Assembly: GCA_016790175.1 (NCBI GenBank)
Contig: JAEUPI010000050.1
Span: 1 to 41,679, forward strand
Direction of reading: 5' to 3'
Length of the DNA stretch: 41,679 nt
Origin: Burkholderiaceae bacterium
Lineage (GTDB): Bacteria > Pseudomonadota > Gammaproteobacteria > Burkholderiales > Burkholderiaceae_C
Positions 21,546 through 41,114 of the stretch are shown here, piece after piece; position 1 is the stretch's first letter, and every line of letters begins with the position of its first letter. The notes below the pieces were generated by a model that worked only from the letters and a program-made list of their open reading frames with translations, did no database searches and had not been told where the DNA came from. The translations under genes were made by a program, and so were the position numbers.

Positions 21546-22055
21546 TTGTCCGCCGAAGCGTCCTCCGATGCGCCCCTCGTGGGCGTGCTCATGGGTTCAT
21601 CCAGCGACTGGGAGACCCTGCAGCATGCGGCACGGATTCTCGCCGAGTTCGGTATCGCCCACGAATGTCGCGTGGTCTCGGCGCACCGCATGCCCGATGA
21701 CCTGTTCGCCTATGCCGAGACGGCGGCAGGGCGCGGGCTGAAGGCCATCATTGCCGGCGCCGGCGGTGCCGCCCATCTGCCGGGCATGCTCGCCGCCAAG
21801 ACCGTGGTGCCCGTGCTCGGCGTGCCGGTGCCGAGCCGCCATCTGCAGGGCGTGGACTCGCTGCACTCGATCGTGCAAATGCCGACCGGTGTGCCGGTGG
21901 CCACCTTTGCGATCGGGCATGCCGGCGCCGCCAATGCGGCCCTGTTCGCAGTGGCGATGATGGCCAACGACGACGCCGCACTGCGCCAGCGGCTGAACGC
22001 GTTTCGCGTGCGGCAGACCGAGGCTGCGCGCGCGATGAATCAGGAACTGAGATGA
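21546..22055 (+). CDS. purE: N5-carboxyaminoimidazole ribonucleotide mutase (class I PurE)
   Basis: Converts N5-CAIR to CAIR in purine synthesis, acting directly after PurK. The family motifs are clear: [28 protein letters not shown] (catalytic His47 in SAHR), [17 protein letters not shown] and [19 protein letters not shown]. No ATG fits the N-terminus. The TTG at 21546 (residues [15 protein letters not shown], 169 in total) is chosen because GAGAG precedes it by eight bases and the length is right. The open frame continues far upstream, but that part is antisense to the thioredoxin gene. Its stop codon overlaps the ATG of the micro-ORF that leads into purK. Confidence 0.94.
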
Positions 22056-22129
22056 AGCCCCCAAGCTCGCTCACGCTCGCGGCCCCCCGAGGGGGAGATC
22101 AGTGGCTTCGGGCGGCCGGGCGCCACTGA
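22052..22129 (+). CDS. micro-ORF inside repeat copy 1, leader to purK
   Basis: A 25-codon frame beginning ATG AAG and ending TGA. The peptide starts MKPPSSL and ends QWLRAAGRH. Its ATG overlaps the purE stop (ATGA at 22052-22055), with AGGA six bases before it, and its stop is separated from the purK GTG by one base. The second copy of the repeat encodes a peptide of the same length with the same beginning and end. Whether it is translated is unknown; it may act only as a coupling leader. From memory, predicted proteins with M(K/R)PPSSL segments are not rare in Burkholderiales, which would make this part of a dispersed repeat. Confidence 0.4.
22052..22129 (+). repeat. 78-bp palindromic repeat, copy 1 (purE-purK junction)
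   Basis: This copy and the one at 40439-40516 have equal length and are nearly identical, with two single-base indels that cancel and scattered substitutions near the centre. Blocks include gcccccaagctc, cgcggccccccgaggggg and cagtggcttcgggcggccgg. An inner C5-GA-G5 palindrome lies at about 22084-22095. A perfect 7-bp inverted repeat, cagtggc (22100-22106) and gccactg (22122-22128), flanks a 15-base loop that is identical in both copies. The hairpin ends two bases before the purK start codon. Confidence 0.85.
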
Positions 22130-22130
22130 A

Positions 22131-23291
22131 GTGAGCGCCATCGCTCGATGGCTGCCTGGCGCCACGCTGGGCGTGCTGGGTGGTGGCCAGCTCGGACGCA
22201 TGTGGGTGCATGCGGCGCAACGTCTGGGTTACCGCTGCGTGGTGCTCGACCCGGATGCGCAGTCGCCTGCGGGCGCCGTGGCCGACGTGCACCTTCGCGC
22301 TGCCTACGACGACGCCGATGCGCTGGCGCAGCTCGCGCAACAGGCGCAGGCGATCACCACGGAGTTCGAGAACGTGCCCGCGCAGACCTTGCGCGCGCTG
22401 GCGCAGTCGCGTTCGGTCGCGCCAGGGGCCGACGCCGTGGCCGTGTGCCAGGATCGTGCGCTCGAAAAAGCCCACTTCGGGCGCTGCGGCGTGCCCTGCG
22501 CACCCCATGCCGTGCTTCAGACCGAGGCCGATCTGGCGCGGGTGTCGCCGACGCTGCTGCCTGGCGTGCTGAAGACCTGCACACTCGGCTATGACGGCAA
22601 GGGCCAGCGCCAGGTGCGCAACGCAGTCGAGTTGCGGCAGGCCTGGCGCGAACTCGGCGGCTTGCGCTGCGTGCTCGAACAGCGGCTGGCGCTTGCTGCC
22701 GAACTCAGCGTCGTGCTCGCCCGCGGCCACGACGGATCGCTGGTGCATTTCGCCCCGATGCAAAACCTCCACCGCGATGGCATCCTCGCGCTCACCCTGT
22801 GGCCGGCGCCCGACGTGCCGCCGGCTGCGCAGGCACAGGCGGTGCAGGCGGCCAGCGCGATTGCCGAGAGCCTGCGCTATGTGGGCGTGATGTGCGTCGA
22901 ATTCTTCCTGCTCGACGATGGCCGGATTGCGGCCAACGAGATGGCGCCACGCCCGCACAACTCGGGCCATTGCACGATCGACGCGTGCGATTGCAGCCAG
23001 TTCGAATGGCAGGTGCGGGCAATGGCGGGCCTGCCGCTGACGCCGCCGCGCGCGCACAGTGCGGCCGCGATGCTGAACCTGCTCGGGGACCTGTGGGGTC
23101 CCGATGGCGTGCCGCCACCTTGGCACGAGGCACTCGCATTGCCCGGGGTGCATCTGCATCTGTACGGCAAGACCGAGGCCCGGCGCGCTCGCAAGATGGG
23201 TCACCTGACGGTGACGGCCGACAGGGCAGACGACGCGCTTCGCATCGCACGCGAGGCAGCGCGGCGCTTGGGCCTGCCTCTCAGCCTCTGA
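22131..23291 (+). CDS. purK: 5-(carboxyamino)imidazole ribonucleotide synthase
   Basis: ATP-grasp enzyme that carboxylates AIR with bicarbonate to give N5-CAIR, the substrate of PurE. The 386-residue protein has the N-terminal GVLGGGQLGRMWVHAAQRLGY, then TTEFENVPAQTL, the ATP-grasp segment KTCTLGYDGKGQ and FFLLDDGRIAANEMAPRPHNSGH. It starts at a GTG (22131-22133) with no ribosome binding site of its own; the preceding bases are the end of the palindromic repeat and the stop of its micro-ORF. Translation is therefore likely to be coupled to purE through the micro-ORF. The tsaC gene follows 11 bases later. Confidence 0.96.
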   Translation: MSAIARWLPGATLGVLGGGQLGRMWVHAAQRLGYRCVVLDPDAQSPAGAVADVHLRAAYDDADALAQLAQQAQAITTEFENVPAQTLRALAQSRSVAPGADAVAVCQDRALEKAHFGRCGVPCAPHAVLQTEADLARVSPTLLPGVLKTCTLGYDGKGQRQVRNAVELRQAWRELGGLRCVLEQRLALAAELSVVLARGHDGSLVHFAPMQNLHRDGILALTLWPAPDVPPAAQAQAVQAASAIAESLRYVGVMCVEFFLLDDGRIAANEMAPRPHNSGHCTIDACDCSQFEWQVRAMAGLPLTPPRAHSAAAMLNLLGDLWGPDGVPPPWHEALALPGVHLHLYGKTEARRARKMGHLTVTADRADDALRIAREAARRLGLPLSL

Positions 23292-40426: not shown

Positions 40427-40432
40427 CACAAT
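40427..40432 (+). promoter_or_regulatory. possible -10 element before repeat copy 2 and fau
   Basis: CACAAT ends six bases before the ATG of the micro-ORF at 40439. TTTAGG at 40402-40407 could be a weak -35 at 19 bases. If used, the transcript would start at the micro-ORF start codon. Confidence 0.3.
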
Positions 40433-40438
40433 GCTCAT

Positions 40439-40516
40439 ATGAGGCCCCCAAGCTCACTTCGTTCGCGGCCCCCCGAGGGGGCGCGTCAGTGGCTTCGGGC
40501 GGCCGGGCGCCACTGA
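40439..40516 (+). CDS. micro-ORF inside repeat copy 2, leader to fau
   Basis: A 25-codon frame starting ATG AGG and ending TGA, one base before the fau ATG. The peptide starts MRPPSSL and ends QWLRAAGRH, as in copy 1, while residues about 8-16 differ because of a local frameshift between two compensating indels. There is no ribosome binding site in front; a -10-like CACAAT six bases upstream would make it leaderless. Translation is unproven. Confidence 0.38.
   Translation: MRPPSSLRSRPPEGARQWLRAAGRH
40439..40516 (+). repeat. 78-bp palindromic repeat, copy 2 (upstream of fau)
   Basis: Second copy of the element at 22052-22129, in the same orientation. It has the same C5-GA-G5 palindrome (about 40470-40481) and the same 7-bp inverted repeat, cagtggc (40487-40493) and gccactg (40509-40515), around an identical 15-base loop. 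The last 30 or so bases of the two copies are identical. The hairpin ends two bases before the fau start codon. Confidence 0.85.
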
Positions 40517-40517
40517 C

Positions 40518-41114
40518 ATGCCCGGAACCTTCAAGCTGCCGATCGAACCTTCGCGCGACAAGGGCGTGCTGCGCCGACAGTTGCAGGCCGAGCGGCAGGC
40601 GATGATCGATCGCCACCAGCGTGCCATGCACCTGCAGGAAGTGCTGCGTGTATGGCTGGTGACGCGTCCCGACCAGAGCATCGGCGCCTACTGGCCGATC
40701 AAGGGGGAGTTCGACGCGCTGCCGGCGTTGTACCGCTGGAGCGAGGCCGAGCCGGACCGGCGCATCGGCCTGCCGGTGATCGACCGCGAGACGAAGCAGC
40801 TGCGGTTTCACATGTGGTTCCCCGGCTGCCCGATGGAGGAGGACGCCTACGGCATTCCGAAGCCAAAGGACACGCCGGAGTTCGAGCCCACGCTGCTGCT
40901 GGTGCCCTGCGTCGGATTCGGCCCGCGCGGCACCCGGCTGGGCTACGGCGGCGGGTTCTACGACCGCACGCTGGCGGCGTTGCGGCCGCGGCCTTTCACG
41001 GTGGGCCTCGGATACAGCCACGGATTCATTCCGTGGCTGTCGCCCGAACCTCACGACATGCCGCTCGATGCCGTGCTGACCGAAGAAGGCGTGGCCTGGC
41101 AGCGGCCCGACTGA
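40518..41114 (+). CDS. fau: 5-formyltetrahydrofolate cyclo-ligase
   Basis: Converts 5-formyl-THF to 5,10-methenyl-THF with ATP, returning stored folate to the one-carbon pool. The 198 residues show SRDKGVLRRQLQAERQAM near the N-terminus and the family signature LLVPCVGFGPRGTRLGYGGG followed by FYDRTLA. The middle contains IGAYWPIKGEFD, also conserved. Its ATG has no ribosome binding site of its own and directly follows the repeat with its micro-ORF. It converges on ompW with 21 bases between stops. Confidence 0.94.
   Translation: MPGTFKLPIEPSRDKGVLRRQLQAERQAMIDRHQRAMHLQEVLRVWLVTRPDQSIGAYWPIKGEFDALPALYRWSEAEPDRRIGLPVIDRETKQLRFHMWFPGCPMEEDAYGIPKPKDTPEFEPTLLLVPCVGFGPRGTRLGYGGGFYDRTLAALRPRPFTVGLGYSHGFIPWLSPEPHDMPLDAVLTEEGVAWQRPD

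Follow-up and report, generated by a model that had tools for sequence, protein, structure and literature searches.

A 78-nucleotide (nt) element that precedes both purK and fau in contig JAEUPI010000050.1 of a Burkholderiaceae bacterium (positions 1 to 41,679, hereafter the window) is very probably best explained as a translation-relaying repeat at Burkholderiales gene starts, working like the mycobacterial interspersed repetitive units (MIRUs). The evidence consists of the placement of its copies, an open reading frame (ORF) that crosses nearly all testable junction copies, covariation in frame between their left and right parts, identical RTGA ends in one subfamily, empty sites in related genomes and a covarying terminal hairpin. 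Loci and genomes are designated below by L and G numbers, and positions at junctions are counted from the stop or start codon named.

Both window copies are 78 nt long and carry a short ORF (mini-ORF) that ends one base before the start codon of the next gene (Table 1), which agrees with what an earlier note on this DNA had read at fau and, likewise, at purK. The note had also held that two single-base indels cancel between the copies, and alignment and translation bear this out: one insertion and one deletion give a net change of zero, so that the two peptides share their ends but differ in the frame used for the middle. The window copies thus preserve reading frame rather than peptide. Copy 1 was recovered by similarity search at E 3.0e-22, so the resemblance goes beyond chance.

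For wider sampling, named records were scanned with the core alone, the ends being left free, which gave at least 118 loci with at least 125 copies, mostly in Burkholderiales by record title. The listed copies lie along both neighbouring genes in 71 cases, against both in 8 and in other contexts in 46. Three of the 71 co-directional copies are inside an ORF (L072, L079, and L119, each within a long co-directional ORF) and 68 are at junctions. One of these lacks an ATG within −4 to 20 of the upstream stop, and in six others the core is not followed by a gene start (another unit comes next in all six, by reading), which leaves 61 testable copies. As many as 59 of the 61 are coupled, that is, an ATG near the upstream stop opens a frame that crosses the element and ends within −8 to +9 of the gene start; L058 and L081 are not. 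When left halves were swapped among the 61 copies, a mean of 28.2 and a maximum of 38 were coupled in 1000 shuffles, and the corresponding values were 29.6 and 40 for right halves, 39.5 and 50 for cores, and 27.4 and 40 for both halves. Moving the start by 1 nt left none of the 61 coupled, and moving it by 2 nt left 12.

This excess survives the removal of similar copies over most of the range used. When each similarity cluster at 0.92 is represented by a single copy, 35 of 36 are coupled (shuffle mean 17, maximum 26, with 0/1000 reaching the observed value); the counts are 17/17 at 0.88, 26/27 at 0.90 and 49/51 at 0.95, and from 0.88 upward no shuffle attains the observed number. Within the 39-copy cluster formed at 0.85, 37 are coupled against a shuffle mean of 18 and a maximum of 28. 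Left and right lengths therefore compensate modulo three beyond near identity, deeper relatedness being only partly removed by the clustering. The suggestion in the earlier note that the kept frame reflects selection on length or on coupling is supported by these counts; its frame-and-coupling idea is right and general, and selection is the cause that we infer.

The spacing of the codons also sets the element apart from its surroundings. In the 58 listed copies selected as coupled, the mini-ORF start lies at −4 from the upstream stop in 14, at −1 in 7 and at +1 in 19, and the gene start lies at +1 from the mini-ORF stop in 26, at −4 in 14 and at −1 in 11. Of 346 element-free co-directional junctions of the same loci (L023–L140), 114 have their nearest start at −4, 26 have it at −1 and 9 have it at +1. 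These genomes thus rely heavily on −4 coupling, and TGA-N-ATG marks the element.

A second type of element has its opposite strand read as the mini-ORF. The pattern of this reverse type was found at 24 places in 9 of 200 genomes of the same family, with RTGA at the expected left position in 16 of the 24 copies and absent there in 8. Single units of 74 or 77 nt make up 13 of the 16, and all 13 have the same RTGA at both ends (10 ATGA, 3 GTGA); since the right tetranucleotide was taken from the stop codon, the actual test is whether the stop is TGA and has the same base in front of it. The other three comprise two fused tandems (L247 and L258) and L241, which runs on. In 10 of the 13, the gene start as called coincides with the right RTGA; in two, the next unit starts there, and L262 has its called start at another position. 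RTGA at both ends looks like a 4-bp duplication of a stop/start overlap. ATGA is present at both ends in 23 of the 59 sense-type copies listed. By reading, the reverse type often places GGGGGC a few bases 5′ of the gene start.

An ordinary REP-like selfish palindrome, surviving in gaps, open by chance in G+C-rich DNA and close to starts because gaps are short, is an improbable alternative. It would fit the dispersed, hairpin-bearing and sometimes tandem copies as well as the tightness of the element-free junctions in the same loci, of which 203/346 fall within −8 to 9. Against it are the coupling of 59/61 listed copies where left-half swaps leave about 28, the rarity of +1 spacing at element-free junctions (9/346 versus 26/58 at the mini-ORF stop), the identical RTGA ends of the reverse subfamily, and a search for the Y1 transposase (Y1_Tnp, PF01797) that was negative in all six genus genomes, three of them at least 90% complete, with a control positive in 5 of 14 genomes.

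Orthologous starts were read or scored in other genomes of the genus for 26 sites, 14 from the genome of the window (purK, fau, L003, L005, L006, L007, L009, L011, L012, L013, L015, L017, L020, and L022) and 12 from G003 (L143, L172, L174, L175, L176, L177, L180, L181, L182, L243, L251, and L263). Upstream synteny was not found in the L012, L017, and L175 rows, in 2/4 L003 rows and in 2/6 L174 rows. At 10 of the 26 sites, at least one insert-free relative has DTGA, the start lying 4 nt inside the upstream stop (purK 3/3, L005 4/4, L006 3/4, L007 1/3, L009 1/1, L172 3/3, L177 5/5, L180 1/4, L251 2/4, and L263 3/4; at L007, L009, and L251 the protein alignment starts a few codons inside the gene). 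Pooled over these ten sites, 26 of 35 short-gap relatives have this overlap, a count that excludes relatives with an insert or a gap of more than 40 nt (L185, L186, L200, L201, L217, L218, L225, L281, and L282).

At four further sites (fau, L011, L012, and L175), a −10-like box can be read 5–9 nt before the start in the relatives, which suggests leaderless mRNAs, and the ATG of the element occupies the start position of the relatives. Such boxes, with possible leaderless mRNAs in this genus, are seen at L011, L012, and L175 and in the relatives L233, L234, L236, L237, L301, and L302. Copy 2 illustrates the arrangement. The gene upstream of it is divergent according to the coding model, so no co-directional gene stands in front, and its mini-ORF is preceded by CACAAT, which we take to be a −10-like promoter motif of putative function. 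By reading, the fau start is free of the element in all four genus relatives in which fau was located (fau was not found in G001), and the same −10-like box lies 6–7 nt 5′ of the fau ATGA in these four. Judging from these relatives, the mini-ORF start of copy 2 seems to have replaced a leaderless-looking fau start.

Table 1. Copies of the element in the window and the features adjoining them
Feature	Position	Strand	Remarks
purE (AIR carboxylase)	21549..22055	+	Stop TGA 22053–22055; 21549 is the edge of the tested stretch, not a determined start
Element copy 1	22052..22129	+	Between purE and purK; mini-ORF of 25 codons + TGA; ATG at 22052 overlaps the purE stop (ATGA); TGA 22127–22129, then A
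purK	22131..23291	+	GTG start one base after the mini-ORF stop; Pfam
−10-like box (CACAAT)	40427..40432	+	6 nt 5′ of the copy 2 mini-ORF ATG
Element copy 2	40439..40516	+	Mini-ORF of 25 codons + TGA; ATG 40439–40441, TGA 40514–40516, then C 40517; stop one base 5′ of fau
fau (5-formyltetrahydrofolate cyclo-ligase)	40518..41114	+	ATG start one base after the mini-ORF stop; Pfam 5-FTHF_cyc-lig

At three junctions the insert is of the sense type in one genome and of the reverse type in another, and every one of these inserts has an open coupled frame: purE–purK has the sense type in G000 and the reverse type in G003 (GTGA to GTGA), the L020 junction (L020/L222) has the reverse type in G000 and the sense type with 35 codons in G003, and the L172 junction (L172/L282) has the sense type in G003 and the reverse type in G001 (ATGA to ATGA). 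The coupled frame at the L013 site comprises 17 codons in the genome of the window, against 26 for G004 and 20 for G001, the length differences being multiples of three, and this retention of the coupled frame by shortened copies at one site likewise supports the selection on length or on coupling proposed in the earlier note. A different insert, with ATGA on both sides and an open 25-codon frame, precedes a pyrR-type start at L218 (G001), where the genome of the window has the element; it may be a decayed copy or belong to another family. Gaps of about 94–140 nt at purE–purK (L185, G005) and at the L007 junction (L201, G002) are possibly further inserts.

The genome of the window (3.93 Mb, 283 contigs, 82% complete) has 22 matches to the element, of which 21 are distinct, L008 and L010 being one site that appears on two contig ends that overlap. 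Fifteen of the 21 are coupled, with a frame that crosses the element and ends −4 to +5 from the next gene start, a range that depends on the choice of gene start. L009 is included despite an uncertain gene start, and L019 is excluded, though within the −8 to +9 range, because its frame begins 17 nt inside the upstream gene; the other five uncoupled copies are L002, L014, L016, L018, and L021. In G003, a near-complete relative from the genus, 8 of 12 exact-core copies are coupled; some copies of this genome recur in the named-record sample (L172 and L040 are identical in sequence). In neither genome, then, do most copies lie in convergent gaps or have broken frames, the outcome that the earlier note had set against its own idea. 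L021 and L061 are copies fused in frame to the downstream gene and would give it an N-terminal extension.

The genes behind the copies in this genome encode, by Pfam, PurK, 5-FTHF cyclo-ligase, coproporphyrinogen oxidase, a phosphoribosyltransferase, and a metallophosphoesterase among those tested, and further a FAD/NAD/2Fe-2S reductase, two branched-chain permeases, a GntR/FCD regulator, a FAD-binding protein, SufBD, an MFS transporter, a LysE transporter, GDPD, and an ABC/UPF0261 protein. They share no pathway theme, and the targeting of purine and folate pathways raised in the earlier note is not supported. The same diversity makes it very unlikely that the element is a regulatory leader (an attenuator or riboswitch-like RNA) of purine and folate genes, an explanation drawn from the position of both window copies in front of linked-pathway genes and from the conserved hairpin. 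The relatives, moreover, have no sense-type copy at purK and fau (G003 has the reverse type at purK; the G005 gap is outside the comparison), and a comparison of the window and of six loci with Rfam gave no match at gathering thresholds. Least likely of all is a functional microprotein selected for its sequence, for which the frame kept open in 59/61 testable copies would speak, because the window copies read their middle in different frames, L005 and L008 read the core in a different frame from L003 and L006, the mini-ORF of the reverse subfamily is on the opposite strand, and shortened versions retain coupling but not the peptide.

Pairing in the terminal hairpin covaries among the listed copies. 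At least six consecutive pairs adjoin the conserved loop in 85 of 122 copies (three of the 125 being dropped for N or a contig end), compared with a mean of 21.6 and a maximum of 31 in 500 re-pairings. RNAalifold, run on one alignment, gave one pair with a compensatory change because the terminal stem was misregistered in that alignment, and pairs were counted directly instead. In 41 of 61 copies, the mini-ORF stop falls in the 3′ arm of the hairpin, starting 4 or 5 nt past the loop block. Tandem units are chained, each with its own frame, at L098, L104, L244, and L246, and are merged into one frame at L089, L093, L137, L247, and L258. L217 and L238 (G003) are longer variants with an extra hairpin-like stretch before the CCCCCCGAG block.

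Matches to the element are present in 22 of 40 genomes (its own included); all 22 are among the 24 genomes of the window genome's family, and none of the 16 genomes of other families has a match. The element belongs to a dispersed repeat family of Burkholderiales that probably was, or still is, mobile.

The mechanism that we favor can be outlined as follows. The element sits at gene starts, often at DTGA stop/start overlaps within operons and sometimes at leaderless-looking starts, with its left end supplying a start codon, one frame remaining open and its terminal stop overlapping or abutting the start of the displaced gene. Ribosomes bound for that gene, coupled from the upstream gene or loaded at the 5′ end of a leaderless mRNA, would translate the mini-ORF of about 25–30 codons, melt the terminal hairpin that holds the stop codon in its 3′ arm, terminate and restart on the gene, thereby making the insertion nearly neutral. 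Translation, reinitiation, mobility and selection as the cause of the open frame are the presumed parts of this explanation. A more specific proposal seems to us finely balanced: a large Burkholderiales family of mobile translation relays that arose independently of MIRUs, in which DTGA would be recognized and duplicated and two subfamilies would use mini-ORFs on opposite strands, enabling elements to reside within operons, in tandem arrays or at leaderless starts and yet leave the gene unsilenced. If the translation-relay explanation is true, a repeat family left without a function in its 2011 description would gain a testable one, and MIRU-like logic would exist in a second, distant lineage. 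It would also explain how short mobile DNA invades tightly packed operons, and many Burkholderiales gene starts would be preceded by translated mini-ORFs.

Several observations weigh against the translation-relay explanation. The named-record sample comes from an exact-core scan with only listed matches and is a lower bound; neighboring genes and starts derive from a home-made codon model, whose self-test (471/512 frames right) was made on its own training ORFs; and the gene start nearest the mini-ORF stop was chosen, a rule that the shuffles follow as well. Clustering at 0.85 leaves 10 copies, all coupled, with a shuffle mean of 5.3 and 6/1000 shuffles reaching 10, and two small tight clusters show a weak excess (8/9, reached by 237/1000 shuffles, and 8/8, reached by 39/1000). 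At 12 of the 26 sites, the relatives clearly show no DTGA overlap or leaderless-looking start of either kind, although L022, L181, and L243 each have one relative with a possible −4 overlap. The uncoupled copies of G003 are L171, with a 127-codon frame, L178, with no gene called, L180, whose stop is inside the gene by 13 nt, and L182, which lacks an ATG frame. The folding energies of both window copies are no better than those of shuffles (z −0.68 and −0.75), and the Y1 search of the six genus genomes identified no mobilizing enzyme. For the Beta-proteobacterial repeat element (BRE), to which we return below, the available text of its description gives no predicted coding sequence in the small RNA regions tested, one of which holds a BRE (PMC3110155).

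Placement is a further point of this kind, 54 of the 125 listed copies not being between two co-directional genes. The proportion is high in the records of Achromobacter, Bordetella, and Verticiella, which we take to belong to Alcaligenaceae: 14 of 17 listed copies are not between co-directional genes and 3 are, which comes nearer to the outcome that the earlier note had set against its idea, and in 8 of the 17 a co-directional gene precedes the copy and no coding is called after it. The core behind a co-directional gene with no coding called after it is seen at L025, L051, L054, L083, L112, and L128 (Achromobacter) and at L077 (Bordetella). Such copies may serve another use or form their own branch of the element family, and the relay may therefore belong to its other branches.

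Among known systems, REP/RAYT elements are short interspersed palindromes, as is the present element, which differs in its position at gene starts with a coupled frame and in the lack of a Y1 transposase in the six genus genomes. Rickettsia palindromic elements are palindromic mobile repeats tolerated by reading frames and lie inside ORFs in frame, whereas the Burkholderiales element is mostly between ORFs and terminates. A literature search by the core string found only an unrelated paper.

BREs are 75–91 bp repeats, dispersed and in tandem in Bordetella, for which the available text proposes no function; they are also present in Polaromonas, Acidovorax, Delftia, and others, and some overlap ORF ends by a few bases (PMC3110155). 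A search by the BRE name found no further paper on them. The present element resembles them in size (about 75–90 nt), in forming some tandem pairs and in having Bordetella, Polaromonas, and Acidovorax among the matches listed, and it differs in its junction mini-ORFs, which are not described for BRE in the available text (PMC3110155), and in that the listed Alcaligenaceae copies are mostly (14/17) not between co-directional genes. Flanking genes gave no link to the published BRE loci, 0/9 flanking proteins from six Bordetella-labelled loci being LexA-like or otherwise identifying. The element family probably includes the BRE repeats, the match being seen in size, tandem habit and host range.

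The closest parallel is with MIRUs, reportedly described by Supply in 1997. These insert at a DTGA target with its duplication, occur in tandem copies and lie in the same direction as neighboring genes; to our knowledge, they contain no clear palindromes. In the available text of a review, MIRUs are apparently mobile repeats inserting at start codons, with an inner ORF coupled at −4 nt, and this mode of insertion likely minimizes the effect on the gene (PMC12548453). The inner ORF of the present element similarly overlaps or abuts the flanking ORFs (59/61 testable listed copies; 15/21 in this genome), and the element lies mostly in the direction of its neighbors (71 versus 8 opposite among 125 listed). 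As to a duplicated DTGA target, identical RTGA ends are present in 13/13 single reverse-type units, ATGA at both ends in 23/59 listed sense-type copies, and a DTGA overlap in empty relatives at 10/26 sites. The element differs from MIRUs in its host phylum, its covarying hairpin, its division into two oppositely oriented subfamilies, the frequency of TGA-N-ATG at its end and the presence of copies at leaderless-looking starts. It appears to act in the manner of MIRUs, yet is set apart from them by its hairpin, the likeness that we see being one of organization.
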